This document shows positions 2,117-26,922 of a stretch of 45,287 bases of DNA, in pieces. How positions within the stretch are numbered: the first letter of the stretch is position 1; each line of letters begins with the position of its first letter. The stretch comes from Chitinophagaceae bacterium. Its GTDB lineage: Bacteria > Bacteroidota > Bacteroidia > Chitinophagales > Chitinophagaceae. The notes beneath the pieces were generated by a model that ran no database searches, was not told the DNA's origin, and was given only the letters and a program-made list of their open reading frames with translations. The DNA lies in contig JALHRP010000033.1 of the NCBI GenBank assembly GCA_022841365.1, positions 1 to 45,287 on the forward strand, read 5' to 3'. The translations under genes and the position numbers were made by a program.

Positions 2117-4159
2117 ATGAAATTAAATAGACTGATACTATTGCTTGTTTTAATTGTTGTATCGCATTTTGCAGAGTCGCAGGAAATATCACTCAATGGT
2201 CAATGGAATTTTGCATTAGACCCATTAGCAAGAGGCGAAGCAATGGGATGGGACCAGCCCTGGAAGATTAATGAAAAAGACAGCACGAATGGTTATGCTG
2301 CCGATCGCTTTGATAAAGTAAATGTTCCGCATTGCTGGAGTACAGATATCCGTTACAATTTTGTTGGTAAGGCTTGGTACAGAAAAGCATTTAAACTTCC
2401 TGAAGATGCAAAAGACAAATTAATCCGGATCAGGTTTGAAGCGGTTTTTTACAAATGCCGCATTTTCATTAATGGTGAATTGGCTGCTTATCATGTAGGT
2501 GGCTACACGCCTTTCACGGTAAACATTACCAAACATATTAAATACAGTGAAGTAAATTTTATTGCCGTTGAAGTTGATAACTCATGGACGGAGTTAACAG
2601 TGCCCGGTGCAAGAATGGGCGATCATCCGTCTGCACAGTTTTTTCCTTGGTACGAGTATGGTGGCATTACAAGAGATGTAAGTTTATTGATTACAGATAA
2701 AGTGTACATCAAAAATCAAAAAATAGAATCTGTCCCCGATTTAAAAACAGGCACAGCACAGGTTAAAATTATTACCTGGATTGAAAACAGATCTCTTGCC
2801 GATGCAACAGTGATGGTGAAACCATTTGTTACAAACCGAACCTCAGGTTCACAGATTCAGCGGGGGAGCATTCCTGTCAATTCAATCAACATAAAAGCAT
2901 TTACTACAGAAAAAATTATTCAGCAGTTTAACATGCAGGCCGGTGAAGTGATGTTGTGGGATTTTGATAATCCCAATCTGTATGATGTTGTTACCACTCT
3001 TGAGTCTGCAGGTAAAGCGATCAATCAATTTGAAACCTATTTCGGCATACGGGAATTTAAAGCAGCAGGTACTCAGTTATTATTAAATGGAAATCCAATT
3101 CGTGTAGCGGGGAGTAACCGTCATTCAGATCATCCGTTGTACGGATCAACTGAGCCGGCAGAACTTGCAAAGATGGATATGGAATTGCAGCGCAGCGGTC
3201 ATATGATTTTTGCAAGAATGAACCACACACCTGTAAGTAAGCATTTTTATAAATGGGCTGATGAGCACGGTTACTTAATGGTAGCAGAAACACCTAACTG
3301 GCAAATCAGTCCTGTGTTAATGGCCACACAAAAAGTAAAAGACGATTTTGTTGCACAAATGAAAGAAATGGTTGAAGCCTTTTGGAACAGTCCATCTGTA
3401 GTGGCATATAGTGCAGGCAATGAATATGCAAGCTGGACTCCGGAAGGTGATGAATGGACAAAAGAAATGTTTGAACAATACAGGTTATTGGATACAACCC
3501 GGCTGTTAACTTTTGTTGCTATTGGCACTGCTGTAAATCCCGTTAATTTAAAATTGCCTCATGATGCGTTCAGGTATTGCGACTTTTTAAATTTCAATAA
3601 TTATTCAGCAGTAGAAGGGCTTGAAAAAAATATGAAAGCACTTCATGCAAAATATCCGGATAAGCCCATTTTTATCAGTGAAACCGGTATGCGGTCGGAT
3701 GAAGTAAAGAATGAACAGGTAAGGGTAGACCACTTGAAAGGATTGATTGATGTAATAAACCGTCATCCCTATGTAGTTGGGTTTTCTTACTGGAGCTTCA
3801 ATGATTATCTCAGCCGCTTTGCAGGTACCAATAAAGATGGTTACAGACCATGGGGCATTGTAGATGCAAACCGTAAACCCAGAGAATTGTATACAGCTTT
3901 TCAAAAAGAATTGTCACCCGTTACGGTAGTTGTTCAGAAAAATAAAATTGTCATCACGGCAAAAACCGGTTTTCCTTCTTACACCATTACCAACCATATT
4001 TTAAAAATCATGGATGGCAGTAAAATGAAAACCAGTTATCCGGTTCCTGCAATCAATCCCGGAAGCAGTGTAGAAATAATCATCAAGAATACAATTGGGA
4101 GTAAACGAATAGTCATAGAAAATAGAGGCGGTATTGTCATTTTTGACGGTTTGTTGTAA
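2117..4159 (+). CDS. Glycoside hydrolase family 2 protein (beta-galactosidase/glucuronidase type), exported
   Basis: This is a retaining exo-glycosidase with the GH2 layout: N-terminal sugar-binding jelly roll (starting near SLNGQWNFALDP), Ig-like middle domain and C-terminal TIM barrel. The likely acid/base is the Glu of AYSAGNE and the nucleophile the Glu of IFISETG. Three in-frame ATGs (2099, 2108, 2117) lie across the stop of the preceding gene. The one at 2117 gives the cleanest signal peptide (MKLNRLILLLVLIVVSHFAES), so export to the periplasm is likely. At about 680 residues it is shorter than LacZ and closer in size to beta-glucuronidases, so the substrate could be a beta-galactoside or a beta-glucuronide. 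The hexuronate-type transporter that follows is compatible with the latter. Confidence 0.88.
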   Translation: MKLNRLILLLVLIVVSHFAESQEISLNGQWNFALDPLARGEAMGWDQPWKINEKDSTNGYAADRFDKVNVPHCWSTDIRYNFVGKAWYRKAFKLPEDAKDKLIRIRFEAVFYKCRIFINGELAAYHVGGYTPFTVNITKHIKYSEVNFIAVEVDNSWTELTVPGARMGDHPSAQFFPWYEYGGITRDVSLLITDKVYIKNQKIESVPDLKTGTAQVKIITWIENRSLADATVMVKPFVTNRTSGSQIQRGSIPVNSINIKAFTTEKIIQQFNMQAGEVMLWDFDNPNLYDVVTTLESAGKAINQFETYFGIREFKAAGTQLLLNGNPIRVAGSNRHSDHPLYGSTEPAELAKMDMELQRSGHMIFARMNHTPVSKHFYKWADEHGYLMVAETPNWQISPVLMATQKVKDDFVAQMKEMVEAFWNSPSVVAYSAGNEYASWTPEGDEWTKEMFEQYRLLDTTRLLTFVAIGTAVNPVNLKLPHDAFRYCDFLNFNNYSAVEGLEKNMKALHAKYPDKPIFISETGMRSDEVKNEQVRVDHLKGLIDVINRHPYVVGFSYWSFNDYLSRFAGTNKDGYRPWGIVDANRKPRELYTAFQKELSPVTVVVQKNKIVITAKTGFPSYTITNHILKIMDGSKMKTSYPVPAINPGSSVEIIIKNTIGSKRIVIENRGGIVIFDGLL

Positions 4160-4207
4160 AACGATGACATGAAAGTGTAAAGAAGAGTCCGGAAGTAAAT
4201 AATTAAT

Positions 4208-5605
4208 ATGGTGAAACAAATTAAAGGAATGCGCTGGTGGATTGTAGGGTTGCTGTTTACAGCAGCTGTACTGAATTATATTGACAGGCAAACCCTTTCT
4301 GCACTGGCACCAACTATTCAGAAAGACTTAGGAATGACCGATAGTGATTATGCAAACATTGTAAATATATTTTTGATTGCCTATACCATTGCTTACATTA
4401 TTTCAGGACGAATTGTAGATAAGATCGGAACAAGAACAGGCACAATGATTTTTGTAATATGGTGGTCTGTTTCAAACATGCTTACTGCAGCAGCAAGAGG
4501 AATGACATCACTCGGGGCCTATCGTTTTATGCTGGGTCTGGGCGAAGCTGGTATTTGGCCGGCTGCTTCAAAAGCAGTTTCAGAATGGTTCCCTGCAAAA
4601 CAACGGGCATTTGCAATTGGACTGTACACCATGGGGGCAACCATTGGTGCTACAGTTGCACCATACGTTGTAATACCATTGGCAACGTATAGTTATGCTG
4701 ATCAGTTACCTGCTGTTGCAAACTGGTTAGGCCAGGGTACAGGCTGGCGTTTGGCTTTTATCATTACCGGGTTTGTTGGGTTGCTGTGGATTGTTCCATG
4801 GCTGTTGATTTACAGAACACCACGAAAGAGTAAACTCATTACAAAGCAGGAGCTGGATTATATTGAACAGGATGATGAAGCAAATAAAACTGATGCGGCA
4901 AAAACCGATGAAACATGGTCGTGGAAAAAAGTATTAACGTATCGTGGCACATGGCTTTTATTACTTGCCCGTTTGCTGACTGATCCCGTGTGGTATTTTT
5001 TTCAGTTCTGGTTTCCAAAATACTTATCATCAGAACGTAACTTATCGCAGGATGCTTTAAAAATTACATGGGTTATTTATGCAGCAGCAGGAGTTGGTAG
5101 TTTGTTTGGCGGCTGGCTGTCCGGCAGGTTTATTAAAAACGGGAAGCAAGCTGTTTCAAGCAGAATGAAAGTAATGCTGTTGTGCGCCTGCATTATGCCG
5201 GCAGCTCCATTCATCAGCAGTGTTACAGGTATCAATTTGTCAATTGTTATTTCTGCAGCGGTGGTGCTGGCATCACTGGCATGGCTGATTAATCTCAGTT
5301 CTATTATTGTTGACATTGTTCCCGGCCATTCATTAGGAACTGTATTTAGCATTGTGGCAGCAGGAAGTACAATTGGTGGTATTATTATGAATATGATTGT
5401 AGCAGCAATGGTTTCAGGGCCATCTTCAAAAGCTTCCGGTTTTTTAGATCAGGGTTTGCAGGCCATACTATCACCCGTTTTAAATATAGTGAAGGGTCAG
5501 GGTTATGCCAGTTGGTTTTTAATCATTGCATTTCTGCATCCTGTAGGTTGGCTGCTGTTAAAATGGGGAGGCATTACAAAACTGCAGCCATCAGTGAAAA
5601 AATAA
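4208..5605 (+). CDS. MFS transporter, anion:cation symporter (ExuT/hexuronate-like)
   Basis: A 465-residue inner-membrane carrier with about 12 predicted transmembrane segments. The first segment carries the NYIDRQ motif typical of the anion:cation symporter branch of the major facilitator superfamily (hexuronate, galactarate and phthalate carriers). The loop between segments 2 and 3 has GRIVDKIGTRTG, the classic MFS motif A, and GLGEAGIWPAASKAVSEWFP matches the conserved region of ExuT-type proteins. A cytoplasmic central loop rich in charged residues separates the two halves. It sits 48 bp after the GH2 gene and before a sulfatase, so it probably imports a product of this locus, plausibly an acidic monosaccharide. 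The substrate cannot be fixed from sequence alone. Confidence 0.87.
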   Translation: MVKQIKGMRWWIVGLLFTAAVLNYIDRQTLSALAPTIQKDLGMTDSDYANIVNIFLIAYTIAYIISGRIVDKIGTRTGTMIFVIWWSVSNMLTAAARGMTSLGAYRFMLGLGEAGIWPAASKAVSEWFPAKQRAFAIGLYTMGATIGATVAPYVVIPLATYSYADQLPAVANWLGQGTGWRLAFIITGFVGLLWIVPWLLIYRTPRKSKLITKQELDYIEQDDEANKTDAAKTDETWSWKKVLTYRGTWLLLLARLLTDPVWYFFQFWFPKYLSSERNLSQDALKITWVIYAAAGVGSLFGGWLSGRFIKNGKQAVSSRMKVMLLCACIMPAAPFISSVTGINLSIVISAAVVLASLAWLINLSSIIVDIVPGHSLGTVFSIVAAGSTIGGIIMNMIVAAMVSGPSSKASGFLDQGLQAILSPVLNIVKGQGYASWFLIIAFLHPVGWLLLKWGGITKLQPSVKK

Positions 5606-5740
5606 ACAGGTAAAGAAAGAATCGCAGTTTGAAAAAATACGCATATGAAAAATGAAATTTTTATAGTTGAACATCGCCGGTTTGTTTTTCCGGATCAGAT
5701 GCTGCAGTTACATACTCAGATAATAACTGCAACAGCATGT

Positions 5741-7270
5741 ATGAAAGCCATTGCCGTTCGATCTTTATTATTATTGATTGCTGTATTTATTTTTATGCAT
5801 GCTGATGCTCAGAAAAATAAAAGCAATCAGCCAAACATCATTTTAATTTATACCGATGATCTGGGTTATGGCGATGTAAGTTGTTATGGTACTTCAGCCA
5901 TTGCTACGCCTCATATTGACCGGTTGGCAAAGAACGGTGTGCGGTTTACCAATGCACATGCAACATCTGCTACATGCACACCATCCCGTTTTTCTTTACT
6001 TACCGGCAAGTACGCATGGCGTAAACAGGGAACAGGTATTGCTCCCGGCGACGCATCTTTACTCATTCCAACTGCTACAACCACTTTGCCGGGTATGTTG
6101 CAAAAAGCAGGTTATAAAACAGCAGTTATTGGTAAATGGCATTTAGGATTAGGTGGCGAAAAAGGACCCGACTGGAACGGAGCTATCAAACCGGGGCCGT
6201 TGGAAATCGGATTTGATTATTCGTTTTTAATTCCTGCAACCGGCGACAGGGTTCCCTGTGTATTTGTAGAAAATCATCATGTAGTGGGTCTTGATAAAAA
6301 TGATCCGATAACAGTTGATTATAAAAAACCGATTGATACTGCTGCAGCTACAGGTAAAAAAAATCCGGAGCTTTTAAAAATGCTTCCATCGCACGGGCAT
6401 GATATGACGATCGTAAATGGCATCAGCCGCATTGGTTACATGACAGGTGGTAACAGTGCACTCTGGAAAGATGAAGACTTTGCATCTGTGCTTGTACAAA
6501 AGGCAACCGCTTTTATTAATCAGCAAAAGGCAAACCCCTTCTTTTTATATTTCTCTACGCATGATATACATGTACCCCGGATTGCCAATGAACGTTTTGT
6601 GGGAAAAAGCGGTATGGGGCCAAGAGGCGATGTGCTGCTGCAGTTAGACTGGACAGTTGGTGAAATTGTTTCCATACTCAAAAAAAATAACCTGCTTGAA
6701 AATACACTGATCATTTTTACAAGTGATAACGGACAGGTGATTGATGATGGTTACAAAGATGAAGCGGTTGAAAAATTAGGCAAACATCAACCAAATGGTA
6801 TTTATCGAGGTGGCAAGTACAGTGCTTTTGAAGCAGGTACCAGAGTGCCGTTTATTGTTAGCTGGAAAGGAAAAATAAAGTCGGGTGCAATTAACAATGC
6901 ATTATTCAGTCAGGTTGATTTGTATGCAAGTCTTGCAAACTTAACGGGTGTTAAAGTAGAGGAGGAGCAGGCGCCGGACAGTAAAAACAATTTGCCTGTA
7001 TTACTGAGTCAATCCAATAAGCCCCGTGAGTTTTTGGTAGAGCAATCACTTAACTCTACGTTGTCGTTACTTGTTGGTAACTGGAAATACATCGAACCTT
7101 CAAAAGGTCCAAAGATGAATAAAGATACCAATACAGAATTAGGCAATTCGCCTGAACCACAATTATACAATTTGGCCGATGATCCGGGTGAAACAAAAAA
7201 TCTTGCAACAACATATCCTGAAAAAGTATCAGAAATGAGACAGCGTCTGGAAAAAATCAAACAAAAATAA
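5741..7270 (+). CDS. Sulfatase, S1 family (formylglycine-dependent), exported
   Basis: This enzyme hydrolyses sulfate esters on a carbohydrate. The catalytic signature is CTPSR within ATCTPSRFSLLTG; the Cys must be oxidised to formylglycine. Other family marks are the metal-binding TDDLGYGD near the N-terminus, GKWHLG, a HDIHVP segment and TSDNGQ. The frame opens at 5645, but the ATG at 5741 starts a good signal peptide (MKAIAVRSLLLLIAVFIFMHADA before Q), so the upstream 32 codons are probably leader. The resulting 509 residues is a normal length. It is one of two S1 sulfatases in the locus, which also encodes an FGE about 14 kb downstream on the same strand. The subfamily, and so the position and sugar of the sulfate, cannot be assigned by eye. 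Confidence 0.9.
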   Translation: MKAIAVRSLLLLIAVFIFMHADAQKNKSNQPNIILIYTDDLGYGDVSCYGTSAIATPHIDRLAKNGVRFTNAHATSATCTPSRFSLLTGKYAWRKQGTGIAPGDASLLIPTATTTLPGMLQKAGYKTAVIGKWHLGLGGEKGPDWNGAIKPGPLEIGFDYSFLIPATGDRVPCVFVENHHVVGLDKNDPITVDYKKPIDTAAATGKKNPELLKMLPSHGHDMTIVNGISRIGYMTGGNSALWKDEDFASVLVQKATAFINQQKANPFFLYFSTHDIHVPRIANERFVGKSGMGPRGDVLLQLDWTVGEIVSILKKNNLLENTLIIFTSDNGQVIDDGYKDEAVEKLGKHQPNGIYRGGKYSAFEAGTRVPFIVSWKGKIKSGAINNALFSQVDLYASLANLTGVKVEEEQAPDSKNNLPVLLSQSNKPREFLVEQSLNSTLSLLVGNWKYIEPSKGPKMNKDTNTELGNSPEPQLYNLADDPGETKNLATTYPEKVSEMRQRLEKIKQK

Positions 7271-22926: not shown

Positions 22927-23967
22927 ATGTTTGATTTAAAAGAACATTCTCATACAAGGAAAAATATTCTTACCGGCGACTGGATTTTGGTATCACCACA
23001 TCGCATGAAACGCCCATGGCAGGGCAAGGTTGAAGATCTTCCTGCAGATGACCGGCCGCAATATGATGCCGGTTGTTATTTATGCCCCGGTAATAAACGG
23101 TCTGATGGTACAGTTAATCCGGTATATGAAAACGCTTATGTATTTACCAACGATTTTTCTGCGTTGCTGGCAGATACACCCGACGGTGAATACAACAATG
23201 CATCGTTGCTGATGGCAAAAAGTGAAAGCGGAATTTGTAAAGTGATTTGTTTTTCACCCGATCACAGTTTAACGTTGCCACGCATGAGTGAACAGGCCAT
23301 AGAAAAAGTAATTGAACTGTGGCAGCAGGAGTTTACAGAACTGTCTCAACACAGTTATATCAAATACATCCAGATTTTTGAAAACAAAGGAGAGATCATG
23401 GGTTGCAGCAATCCGCATCCGCATGGACAAATATGGGCTTCATCATCCATTCCATTAGAACTTTCTAAAGAAACCACTCAACAACAGTTGTATTATAACA
23501 GCAACGGTAAAAGTTTGCTGGGCGATTATTTACAGATTGAACTGCAGCAACAGGAACGTATTGTTGTTGAGAACGAACATTTTGCAGCGCTGGTTCCTTT
23601 CTGGGCGGTATGGCCTTATGAGACAATGATCATCAGCAAACGGCATGTGCAACATCTGCTTCAGTTTACCGATGTAGAAAAAGCATCGCTTGCTTCGCTG
23701 TTAAAAAAACTCACCACTAAATACGATAACCTCTTTAATGTATCGTTCCCTTATTCTGCAGGTATGCATCAGGCACCGGTAAACGATGGTGCACATGAAG
23801 AATGGCATTGGCATATGCATTTTTATCCGCCGTTATTACGCAGCGCTACCGTTAAAAAATTTATGGTGGGGTATGAAATGCTGGCTAATCCGCAACGGGA
23901 TATTACAGCCGAGACAGCTGCTTCGGCACTCCGCTCATTACCGGAAGTACATTATAAAGACAAGTAG
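22927..23967 (+). CDS. galT: Galactose-1-phosphate uridylyltransferase
   Basis: Transfers UMP from UDP-glucose to galactose 1-phosphate, the second Leloir step. At 346 residues it has the family length. The active-site motif NPHPHGQIW is intact, with His166 as the uridylylated nucleophile, and Cys50/Cys53 in GCYLCPGN are the usual zinc-binding pair. The C-terminal HWHMHFYPPLLRS is also conserved in GalT. It starts 3 bp after galK and is followed at once by a strong terminator. Confidence 0.97.
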   Translation: MFDLKEHSHTRKNILTGDWILVSPHRMKRPWQGKVEDLPADDRPQYDAGCYLCPGNKRSDGTVNPVYENAYVFTNDFSALLADTPDGEYNNASLLMAKSESGICKVICFSPDHSLTLPRMSEQAIEKVIELWQQEFTELSQHSYIKYIQIFENKGEIMGCSNPHPHGQIWASSSIPLELSKETTQQQLYYNSNGKSLLGDYLQIELQQQERIVVENEHFAALVPFWAVWPYETMIISKRHVQHLLQFTDVEKASLASLLKKLTTKYDNLFNVSFPYSAGMHQAPVNDGAHEEWHWHMHFYPPLLRSATVKKFMVGYEMLANPQRDITAETAASALRSLPEVHYKDK

Positions 23968-24188: not shown

Positions 24189-25652
24189 TCACGCCTCATC
24201 ATACACCACCATCACATTAAAATCAAATTTATCTGCAGTGCCTGTCAATTCTATTGTAACCTGTATGGGATAATCTTTTTTGTAAGGTGATTTTTCCCAA
24301 AGGCTATCTGGAATTTTTATTGACTGGCTTAATGAAAACACAGGCTGATAATTATTCGGGGTGTTATATGAAGAAACGGAATAAGATTGGCTTACTTTCA
24401 TCCCATTACTAGTTACACATCTAACTTCAATCATCAATGCGTTTTTTATCAGTTGAGCAGCCCATTCATCAGGGTGCGACCAGGTGAATAATGGGGTGAG
24501 TATTATTTTTTTAATCTCAATGAACGACCCCAAGTTGACTAATGTAATTTCTTTTTTCCTTTCTGTATTTGTAAAGCGCATGGCTGCATCTTTTTTTATA
24601 GACGCCGTTCCTTCAATACTGTAATTGGTACTTGCCCCGGCGCCATGCATTACAAGTAGTTTGTCTTTCACCATACCGGTAAGTATCCGTTTCACTGTTG
24701 GTAAAGGGATGCTTAATTTTTCTGCTATTTCGCCTGATTGAGAACCCGGATGATTTTCAATGTATGAATATATTTTTTTCTCTCTTATTGAAAGCTTTCC
24801 GCTTTTTGTTTGCACCTCTAACTTCGTCATCAATTGGCTTTGGATGTTCTTCAGGCAATCTAAAAAAAACAATACCCAGGGATAAACATCTTCACCCGGC
24901 CTTTGCCGCTGGCACTGCATTAAAATTTTATAGTATTCCGATTTACGGTTTTCAATTTCATGTTCAAAGCTTACATACTGCACCCATGAATATCCATGTT
25001 TAAGCAATAATAATGTTCCCAGCAAACGGCTCAATCTTCCATTACCATCCTGAAATGGATGGATACTCAAAAAGTTATACACAAATATGGCGGCTTTTAT
25101 CAAAGGCAATGTTTGTGTATCAGATTTATACCAGGTTATTAAATTACTCATAGCATCTTCGGTAGCAAGACCCGGCTCTGTTGTTTTAAAAACAACATGT
25201 TTTGAGCCATCTGCATTTACTGCTTCCACCACATTACTATGTTGCTTATAGTTTCCTTTATGCCAGCTATCTTTTTCGCTATGCTTCATCAGAGTATTAT
25301 GCAGATGTTTCAAATTACTTTCTGTAATTTCTACATCCCTGAATGATTCTGCTATCAACTCCAGTGCTTCAAAATAGCCTGCTACTTCCTGATGGTCCCG
25401 TTCTTCCAATTTTGAAATGGCAAGATTTTTTATCAGCACTTCCACTTCATCATCTGTCATTTTAGAACCTTCAATACGTGTAGAGGCACCTACACTCCGG
25501 ACAGTGGCGATAGATTTCAGTTGCTTTAGTGTTTGACCTTCCCTTTTTTCAATTGTTGCCCATGAGGCATCAAACCGGTCTAACTGACTGATTTGGTTGG
25601 TCAAGTGCATCCAATTTGGTTCAAAAGTGAAGGTATAAATCGAGTTTGACAT
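24189..25652 (-). CDS. Fic-domain protein (class II, autoinhibited) with winged-helix and extra C-terminal domain
   Basis: A 487-residue Fic protein, probably an AMP-transferase or related nucleotidyl transferase acting on a protein. The Fic_N region at residues 1-90 carries the inhibitory motif STRIEG (S57, E61, G62; pattern S/TxxxEG), and the Fic core holds HPFQDGNGRLSR (His198), with all catalytic positions intact. Residues 285-355 look like a winged helix (IREKKIYSYIENHPG, EIAEKLSIPLPTVKRILTGM), common at the C-terminus of this group. Residues 360-487 form a further domain that I do not recognise. The gene stands alone on the minus strand between the galKT terminator and a recombinase remnant, and its leader contains the ordered repeat array at 25662-25756, possibly its own operator. 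No antitoxin gene is adjacent, consistent with built-in inhibition. Confidence 0.9.
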   Translation of the reverse strand: MSNSIYTFTFEPNWMHLTNQISQLDRFDASWATIEKREGQTLKQLKSIATVRSVGASTRIEGSKMTDDEVEVLIKNLAISKLEERDHQEVAGYFEALELIAESFRDVEITESNLKHLHNTLMKHSEKDSWHKGNYKQHSNVVEAVNADGSKHVVFKTTEPGLATEDAMSNLITWYKSDTQTLPLIKAAIFVYNFLSIHPFQDGNGRLSRLLGTLLLLKHGYSWVQYVSFEHEIENRKSEYYKILMQCQRQRPGEDVYPWVLFFLDCLKNIQSQLMTKLEVQTKSGKLSIREKKIYSYIENHPGSQSGEIAEKLSIPLPTVKRILTGMVKDKLLVMHGAGASTNYSIEGTASIKKDAAMRFTNTERKKEITLVNLGSFIEIKKIILTPLFTWSHPDEWAAQLIKNALMIEVRCVTSNGMKVSQSYSVSSYNTPNNYQPVFSLSQSIKIPDSLWEKSPYKKDYPIQVTIELTGTADKFDFNVMVVYDEA

Positions 25653-25661
25653 ATTTTAATA

Positions 25662-25756
25662 ATACGATTTGATACGCTAATGTACGATTTTAGCTCGAAA
25701 TTAAAAATGAAAAATGATTCGATTTGAAACGATTTTATACGATAATGATTCGAAAT
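25662..25756. repeat. Two 40-bp blocks of four CG-phased units in the Fic leader
   Basis: Block 1 (25662-25701) and block 2 (25717-25756) are both 40 bases long and match at 29 of 40 positions. Each holds four units centred on CG, with cores such as TACGATTT, TTCGATTT and TCGAAAT. The CG steps lie at 25665, 25675, 25685, 25696 and at 25720, 25730, 25740, 25751, so both blocks have the same 10-10-11 spacing, one DNA turn per unit. The array starts 10 bp before the Fic ATG. A TAATTTCG at 25703-25696 (minus strand) is one mismatch from TAnnTTTG and could be the promoter core. This fits an operator bound by a multimer, perhaps through the Fic winged helix; that binding is inference. Confidence 0.75.
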
Positions 25757-26111
25757 AGCTGGTATGTTTTAAATATGTGTTCACTTGTGCCAAGAATCAA
25801 AGAGCTTTTTAGGATACTATGAAAAACAACAGCAAGGCATGTTGAATGAATGGACAGATTCTGTTTGGAATGAATAATTCAAGCGTTAGTTGACAATAAG
25901 TAACAAGAGAATAAATAATTTTTATACCGGCTCTTTCATCTCTATTTATCTTTTGTTGCGACGCTCAGTTCGTCGTTTTGTTCACCTATCATCAAAGACT
26001 TGGCGCAATCCTTTCGCTGTTTATATAAATCGTTACGTCTACGTTCCAAACAAAATGACGAAACCATTGCGCCGGATAAAGATATTGGAATTGCGATTGG
26101 CTATCATATAA
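25757..26111. other. Degenerate intergenic stretch
   Basis: About 355 bases without a convincing gene. Short open frames exist on the + strand (73 codons at 25890-26111, and another frame ending in DKDIGIAIGYHIR before a TGA at 26114) but neither shows a recognisable family or proper start. The stretch probably contains eroded coding sequence from the element that left the recombinase remnant. Confidence 0.4.
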
Positions 26112-26706
26112 GATGAATTAAACTATCCAGCAAAACACAATTCCAAAAACTATAAAGCAGAAAATGCAAACCAGTAGTTTTCAAGTGAACTTAAAAAATT
26201 AGTTCCAAAACCGGGTACGACTGAAGTTTATAAAATTGTTTTGCAGGAAGAATTTAAAGCCCAAACAAAGTCTCAGCGGGAAGATTTAAAGCAGGTAAAG
26301 GAAACCTTAGAAAAAGCCACTACAGAGCTTGCACATGCTCGTAAATTGCTTTTAGCAAACGAGATTGAGCCATCAGAATATAGGTCAATAAAATTTGAGT
26401 ATGAAAAGAGAATTACCGGGCTTGAATCAAAACTGATAGAATTGTCAAAGGAGGGAAAAAGCATAGAACCCTTTTTGAATAAAGCATTATCAACATTGAC
26501 ATCCTTAGATAAATTATACGAAAAAGCAGACAACAAAGCCAAAATAGAAATGATTGGGTCGATATTCGAAAAACTCGTTTTTGACGGATTTCAATATCGA
26601 ACCGCCAGATTAAACGAAGCTGTTCAACTAATATACAGTCTGGGTAAGGGTTTCAGCCAAAATGAAAATGGACAAACCGAATCAATTTTCGATTTGTCCA
26701 CTTCAG

Positions 26707-26790
26707 TGCCCGGGACTGGATTCGAACCAGCACGTCCTTTCGAACACCACCACCTCAAAGTGGCTTGTCTACCAATTTCAACACCCGGGC
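26707..26790 (-). tRNA. tRNA-Leu (anticodon GAG)
   Basis: An 84-nt class II tRNA without encoded CCA. The acceptor arms GCCCGGG / CCCGGGC pair fully with discriminator A. The D-arm has the tRNA-Leu pattern AATTGGTAGACA. The anticodon stem CCACT/GGTGG encloses loop TTGAGGT, giving anticodon GAG. A long variable arm is present, and the T-loop is TTCGAATC. Its 3' end faces the recombinase remnant and is probably the former attachment site. Confidence 0.93.
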
Positions 26791-26792
26791 AA

Positions 26793-26810
26793 AAGAGTTC
26801 TTCAACTCTT
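26793..26810 (-). terminator. Small hairpin between the sensor kinase gene and tRNA-Leu
   Basis: On the minus strand, arms AAGAGTT and AACTCTT with a 4-base loop are followed by TTTT at the tRNA 5' edge. It could end the kinase transcript, or be a processing hairpin if kinase and tRNA are co-transcribed. The stem is weak and the T-run very short. Confidence 0.3.
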
Positions 26811-26922
26811 CATTCAGGGCAGCAAATGTAATTGAAAATTTAAAAGAAGAAAAAACAAGTTTGCAGTTTGTAGTTAGGGTAAGCATATTAACTAAAAACT
26901 ATAAACTACCAACCATTAACAT

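Follow-up and report, generated by a model that had tools for sequence, protein, structure and literature searches.

Phased direct repeats as a predicted operator in the leader of a Bacteroidota Fic gene

The fic gene and the repeats in its leader

The stretch of DNA analysed here (the window, 45,287 nucleotides) carries a fic gene on its minus strand. Pfam matched the Fic domain to residues 109-216 of the encoded protein (E = 1.3e-16, 61.7 bits against a cut-off of 24) and HTH_24 to residues 289-325 (E = 4.8e-5, 23.3 bits against a cut-off of 21.9), and the PADLOC SoFic model matched residues 14-341 (161 bits, 1.1e-47). The winged helix lies downstream of the Fic domain, as in other members of the SoFic-like class. 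SoFic entries of the PDB (3eqx, 3zcn, 9tc4 and others) match residues 162-270 by sequence. The PDB entry that matches best, 8uqu over residues 37-273, is a Fido-domain protein. No Pfam match to the N-terminal domain DUF4172 was found in the protein at E <= 0.001, and residues 350-487 gave no Pfam match above cut-off (best DUF5034, E = 0.042, 14.3 bits against 25). The features of the gene are as follows.

24189-25652, minus strand: fic gene, 487 residues, class II Fic enzyme with C-terminal winged helix (open reading frame, Pfam, PADLOC)
25467-25484, minus strand: inhibitory-helix motif STRIEG, residues 57-62 (sequence)
25026-25061, minus strand: Fic active-site motif HPFQDGNGRLSR, residues 198-209 (sequence)
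24615-24800, minus strand: winged helix, approximately residues 285-346 (HTH_24 match at residues 289-325)
24702-24704 and 24687-24689, minus strand: recognition-helix residues 317 and 322 (top-ranked covariation columns)
24192-24614, minus strand: extra C-terminal domain, residues 347-487 (protein beyond the winged helix)

The STRIEG sequence has the form that we take to define the inhibitory motif, (S/T)xxxE(G/N), and is invariant across a 10-row alignment of homologous proteins. In the same alignment HPFQDGNGRLSR, which conforms to the Fic motif HPFx[D/E]GNGRxxR, is invariant or nearly so. With this motif intact, the protein is a putative AMP-transferase. STRIEG also agrees with the examples of inhibitory motifs in two studies of related enzymes (PMC10628234, PMC9755527).

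Downstream of fic, a convergent open reading frame occupies positions 22927-23967 and is presumably galT. We checked the downstream side for an antitoxin gene in 45 named loci with at least 1.2 kb of downstream sequence. In 26 of them no close co-directional reading frame of about 100 codons precedes a convergent one, and inspection by eye revealed no common downstream neighbour in the other 19. On the other side of the gene, a coiled-coil reading frame at 26241-26831 runs into a tRNA-Leu(gag) at 26706-26790. We take it to resemble the C-terminal end of a serine recombinase; positions 26241-26720 had no Pfam match above cut-off. The reading frame and the tRNA gene are possibly the remnant of an integrated element.

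The leader of fic contains eight CG steps, at 25665, 25675, 25685, 25696, 25720, 25730, 25740 and 25751 on the plus strand, or -14, -24, -34, -45, -69, -79, -89 and -100 relative to the Fic ATG. A first-pass annotation of this DNA had described these eight steps as two similar blocks with common phasing and a shift of 55 bp, and both parts of the description were borne out. The single direct-repeat family that we found consists of two 44-nt copies (25658-25701 and 25713-25756) that are 73% identical and 55 bp apart. In gene direction both blocks are spaced 11-10-10, and their units are head-to-tail direct repeats of approximately wwwTCGTATC.

25658-25703, minus strand: proximal operator block, predicted; CG steps 25696, 25685, 25675, 25665; matrix score 39.2
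25713-25758, minus strand: distal operator block, predicted; CG steps 25751, 25740, 25730, 25720; matrix score 44.8

Arrangements of this kind were rare when the 150-bp leader was shuffled 20,000 times with its dinucleotides preserved. A CG block spaced 11-10-10 turned up once or more in 11 shuffles and twice in none, and two chains with any mix of 10- and 11-bp spacings occurred in 2. A self-similarity score that is blind to CG was 38 for the leader, a value attained by 0 of 200 shuffles. We also derived a matrix of the block from 162 examples in relatives, among which the two of the window were counted, and scanned the 45-kb window with it. The two blocks were the two best matches, and the next-best score was -7.9, shifted registers of the array excepted.

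Leaders of homologous fic genes

The Fic protein was searched in 119 related genomes and in 395 genomes of the class, 396 of the order and 296 of the phylum. Genome contigs were searched as well, with the best 80 of at least 572 relatives taken. The resulting homologue set of 241 loci, which is part of all matches, includes 222 that matched at E <= 1e-20. A usable start and non-duplicate status left 189 loci, of which 187 had 150 bp upstream and 163 remained after removal of similar proteins. These 163 leaders belonged to proteins with at least 50% identity (101), with 33-50% identity (57) or below (5). One leader of the first group (100 N in 150) was dropped after the shuffle test, leaving 100.

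All 512 four-unit spacings with steps of 7-14 bp were compared by the CG-blind score. In the 101 leaders at 50% identity or more, 11-10-10 ranked first (mean 35.3; all spacings 22.4, SD 1.7) and 10-10-10 second (30.0). Tested against their own shuffles, 88 of the 101 leaders reached p <= 0.05 and 80 reached p <= 0.01, the leader later dropped being counted as a miss. A leave-one-out matrix for the 46-bp block, from which the tested leader was excluded, gave a best block of at least 5, the threshold, in 95/100 leaders and a second block in 67/100. As controls we took 4,492 windows of 165 bp lying outside these leaders in the same loci; 3 passed. The phased CG array that the first-pass annotation proposed to look for in related leaders is therefore present in 95/100 of the non-redundant homologues with at least 50% identity; 28 of the 100 leaders have one block. 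Random clustering of CG is ruled out by the shuffles, the spacing scan and the leave-one-out matrix.

Five leaders were missed by the matrix. In one (L220) the start was mis-called and the array is located further up. The other four (L078, L087, L127, L213) contain, by eye, repeats about one turn apart in which TG replaces CG. Over 993,957 bases of homologue loci the matrix found 270 matches at 3 or above, 66 of them outside called leaders, and many of these 66 are the leaders of loci that had been dropped as duplicates.

In the 66 two-block leaders the consensus of the proximal block is TCgaATnaTtATCGtATATTtgCGtATCAtAtCGTATcA, and that of the distal block is similar. Over 92 leaders, units 2-4 hold 1.43 bits per column, compared with 0.16 in the 16 bp that precede the block. 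Within a block the first unit is the weaker one: it has 4.4 and 3.0 bits in the two blocks, and the other three have 6.8-9.4. Some leaders hold longer arrays: L046 has some twelve CG units, most of them 10 bp apart, and L036 has three blocks. Taken as sequence, the array is a conserved predicted operator and no local repeat.

The domain beyond the winged helix had been considered part of the system, a view that did not hold. Arrays were found in 17/17 proteins of at least 450 residues, a length that we used as a proxy for having the extra domain, and equally in 73/77 proteins of 330-400 residues. The extra C-terminal stretch is therefore not needed, and a dependence of the array on it is rejected, with length as the proxy.

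Below 50% identity the 11-10-10 spacing was mostly not detected: p <= 0.05 was reached in 1/5 leaders at 45-50%, 3/36 at 40-45% and 6/16 at 33-40%. A strict 11-10-10 rule for all homologues is rejected by this group. Its best four-unit spacings were 8-11-11 and 11-11-11, and its best three-unit spacings 11-11 and 10-12, with 11-11 scoring 18.5 (mean 15.2, SD 0.9). Units were also called by an automatic finder with steps of 10-12 bp. Its cut of 5 was passed by 90/2,000 and 55/1,100 shuffled leaders, so about 1 in 20 random leaders would pass. Calls scoring below 5 were omitted from the tables (12/100 and 22/55 leaders, and 14/32 among the further sequences described below). A stricter cut of 6 was passed by 5/2,000 and 1/1,100 shuffles, 6/3,100 in total, and by 68/100 and 17/55 real leaders, the 55 being those at 36-50% identity. 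Many homologues in this range have other words that are again about one turn apart. In still more distant Fic genes (L016, L017, L018, L024, L026, L029; 27-33% identity) we noted another pattern, an inverted repeat GCGGw...wCCGC, which was present in 6 of 16 distant leaders examined and looks like the mode of CccR, discussed below.

Matches to the block were also seen beside fic genes. At L199, from an uncultured Mucilaginibacter, a further array (4043-4088, score 35.6) directly follows fic, and 77 bp beyond it begins a short Argonaute operon of two genes (4166-6978; PADLOC Aga_REase-PNTD 3e-88 and pAgo_I 2e-175; Pfam DUF4062). The Fic protein of this locus may control the defence system. At L215 an array (4235-4280, score 47.0) is found about 190 bp downstream of fic, with no closed reading frame of at least 60 residues on the array strand in the 2.8 kb after it. 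Downstream of the fic gene of Sediminibacterium soli (L190) lies an ATPase of the candidate defence family PDC-S27 (4887-6320, 5e-194).

Covariation of the unit with the recognition helix

The unit is not the same in all homologues. Among 95 of them the words were CGTATC (55), CGTATA (12), CGGATA (9), CGAATC (5) and rarer others. With units derived from the matrix, residue 322 of the recognition helix ranked first by mutual information for base +4, the fourth base after CG (0.527; next column 0.347). The pairs of residue and base were R/C 60, K/A 23, K/C 4, R/A 1, R/T 1 and N/C 1, with the residue absent in 5.

The automatic units (117 homologues, 345 columns) again put residue 322 first for base +4, at 0.590 and narrowly ahead of residue 323 at 0.550. 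For the first base of CG, residue 317 ranked first at 0.642, by a narrow margin over residues 318 (0.628) and 41 (0.583). The columns that ranked highest for bases +1 and +2 lay outside the recognition helix. At 317, a basic residue occurred with T in 30 homologues and with C in 2, and a non-basic residue with C in 81 and with T in 4. At 322, R/C was found 49 times, K/A 37, R/A 10 and K/C 5, or 15 exceptions in 101. The stricter cut left 83 rows, in which the 317 rule was kept in 82 (basic/T 20, non-basic/C 62, non-basic/T 1) and 322 gave R/C 37, K/A 30, R/A 6, K/C 4, R/T 1 and other residues 5.

Since one phylogeny is common to all columns, the top rank of the helix positions 317 and 322 is informative. 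Sign tests on independent pairs agreed in direction with the prediction; for 322 and the matrix-derived units, about 4.1 pairs were in favour and 0.1 against. With so few pairs the tests did not reach 0.05 (median p 0.125 to 0.5). The covariation of the unit with the recognition helix ties the array to the Fic protein rather than to another regulator. A role of CG as methylation target is an unlikely reason for the core, given that its C is T in homologues with K or R at 317.

The rule for 317 and 322 was fixed before we turned to 56 further loci, of which IMG/VR supplied 49, plasmids 5 and genomes 2; the five plasmid leaders, however, had already been inspected. Of these loci, 49 had a usable gene, 32 were non-redundant and 18 had a confident unit. 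K or R at 317 went with T in 14/14 cases, or 10/10 without the plasmids, and a non-basic residue with C in 2/4. The majority of these rows are closely related to the known R317/T group, so that the test is a mild one. For 322 there were two usable R rows, one with C and one with G (L288), and no K rows. We noticed post hoc that D or E at 322 went with G in 5/7 further sequences, and also in L098. This would agree with an acidic residue pointing at the C of the complementary strand, just as R would point at G; we offer it as no more than a suggestion.

The five plasmid loci, chosen among 15 matches listed of 60 matching records, come from Chroococcidiopsis, Thiothrix (two), Shinella and Rhizobium, and their proteins have 38-41% identity. 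By eye, these leaders from outside Bacteroidota contain TGGATA, TTGGCTAA or TGGATG words 10-12 bp apart. Bartonella and Agrobacterium are also among the plasmid matches listed. Some viral or distant homologues have Q at 322 (L264, L271, L273, L290, L294, L297); their leaders contain ATAATCTGATATA-like words of another type, outside the 317/322 rule.

Promoter placement, mechanism and comparison with known systems

The -7 box of Bacteroidota, TAnnTTTG, is located at -12 to -5 from the start point (PMC9723704), and promoters of B. fragilis have TTTG near -33 (PMC7366714). The first-pass annotation had noted that the array overlaps a possible -7 element.

25677-25684, minus strand: candidate -7 element TACATTAG between proximal units 2 and 3, one mismatch to TAnnTTTG

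TAnnTTTG is present between units 2 and 3 in 24/66 proximal versus 1/66 distal blocks, and TTG lies exactly 19 nt upstream of the TAnnTTTG site in 13/66 leaders. In the window leader no -33 TTG was seen by eye. In the homologues, the -7 element of Bacteroidota tends to fall inside the proximal block. The start point of the window gene is predicted near 25672, which would give a leader RNA of 20 nt. Relative to the predicted start point, the proximal units extend from about -25 to +12 and the distal units from -80 to -44.

Distances between the two blocks (n = 67) were 44-47 bp in 18 leaders, 50-58 bp in 44, 65 bp in 2 and 36-43 bp in 3. At a period of 10.5 bp they gave R = 0.62, where a smoothed null did not exceed 0.35, with the reservation that related leaders are not independent. 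The period itself is not pinned down, with R between 0.60 and 0.63 from 9.5 to 11 bp.

We propose, with a probability of roughly 0.8, that the array is an autoregulatory operator that the Fic protein would read head-to-tail with its own winged helix, repressing its own promoter. Autoregulation by self-binding had been suggested from the window alone, and the arrays of the homologues and the covariation with the helix now support it at the level of sequence. The winged helix of one Fic protomer would read one ten-base unit, with residue 322 reading the fourth base after CG and residue 317 the first base of CG. Protomers would align head-to-tail on one face of the DNA, one per helical turn, in blocks of about four. 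The proximal block would cover the -7 element and the start point, and the distal block would lie upstream of the -33 region. Filled blocks would exclude RNA polymerase, and in this proposal the AMP-transferase would thereby limit its own synthesis. The array, its conserved phasing, its position over the promoter motif and its covariation with the helix are observations; we infer that Fic itself binds the units, cooperatively and with one protomer on each, that the effect is repression and not activation, and that there may be a link to enzyme activity.

As a counterpoint, a symmetric Fic dimer such as SoFic or CccR would on its own not fit direct repeats. The protein might instead bind the array as a dimer that bridges the blocks or reads alternate units, closer to CccR. 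We consider this unlikely, although it deserves to be taken seriously. A Fic dimer could place one arm on each of two blocks at preferred distances; the units inside a block, however, are direct repeats one turn apart, and only one block is present in 28 of 100 leaders. Moreover, 45-55 bp is short for a DNA loop. In favour of the dimer, both SoFic and CccR are reported as dimers in PMC10628234 and PMC9755527.

Activation of fic, or of fic together with neighbouring defence genes, from the array appears improbable. The distal block upstream of -33 would suit an activator, and at L199 a further array stands between fic and the short Argonaute operon. Yet the proximal block lies over the -7 element and the predicted start point, an occluding place, and CccR is described as a repressor. 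Occupation of the array by a different conserved regulator of fic genes is very improbable: we infer the binding of Fic, and the association with the helix columns is partly common to neighbouring columns, but the unit changes with the Fic recognition helix, and another regulator would need to change in step. A neutral tandem repeat, a curved-DNA signal or a leader RNA element can practically be dismissed. The similarity of the two copies, 55 bp apart, hints at an old duplication, but the phasing is kept as the words change, the stretch before the block is not conserved, positions 25400-26100 have no Rfam match at the gathering threshold and transcription is predicted to start within the proximal block.

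A more speculative extension of autorepression, which we regard as doubtful, is that the array holds Fic in one state (off or deAMPylating). The promoter would then play the part of the antitoxin in a single-gene system, and release from it would activate the enzyme and restart synthesis. If so, the two-residue code would allow a single genome to carry several of these systems without cross-talk.

Head-to-tail binding of the kind proposed has parallels in proteins without a Fic domain. BldC of Streptomyces binds head-to-tail direct repeats as a cooperative multimer, with four protected tracts one turn apart (PMC5859096). The window array resembles its sites in having direct repeats about one turn apart and in variable number. 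BldC is, however, a 68-residue MerR-like protein with a regulon and no enzyme domain, and the window protein is a 487-residue Fic enzyme. The winged-helix protein RdfS binds as a tetramer with one molecule per 10 bp and no apparent consensus motif (PMC11963761), and the response regulators PhoP and PmrA are winged-helix proteins on direct repeats (PMC5859096); all three are unrelated to the window protein.

Among the Fic proteins themselves, we know of no operator for SoFic. According to PMC10628234, DNA binding of SoFic has not been shown. The same source describes CbFic2 of Coxiella burnetii, like the window protein a class II Fic enzyme with a winged helix, whose AMPylation and deAMPylation are altered by DNA binding. 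Its specific site is given there as not known and random DNA was used, in contrast to the sequence-defined array of the window. Whether the activity of the window enzyme is set by its sitting on its own promoter, as DNA does for CbFic2, is a question that this comparison raises.

The closest system is CccR of Yersinia pseudotuberculosis, a class II Fic protein with a C-terminal winged helix that represses its own promoter (PMC9755527). It sets a precedent for autorepression by a Fic protein with a winged helix. In both cases the site is near promoter boxes. The CccR dimer protects an inverted repeat with the sequence AGATAATCAT-N26-ATGATAATCT (PMC9755527). The window array is not an inverted repeat with a long spacer; it consists of direct repeats, about four per block and one per turn, often in two blocks. 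No Fic operator of such layout was found in the open-access literature searched, and within that literature an operator had been mapped for only one Fic enzyme with a winged helix. Autorepression by a Fic protein with a winged helix had already been published for CccR. What appears new is the predicted operator layout and recognition rule, and what is known is a self-regulating Fic protein with a winged helix. By our prediction, one conserved class of operator serves a large group of these enzymes, and particular residues are tied to particular bases. This rule makes self-binding testable with natural pairs of protein and operator and offers a route to the targets of the enzymes. The window Fic protein may work like CccR, on another kind of site.
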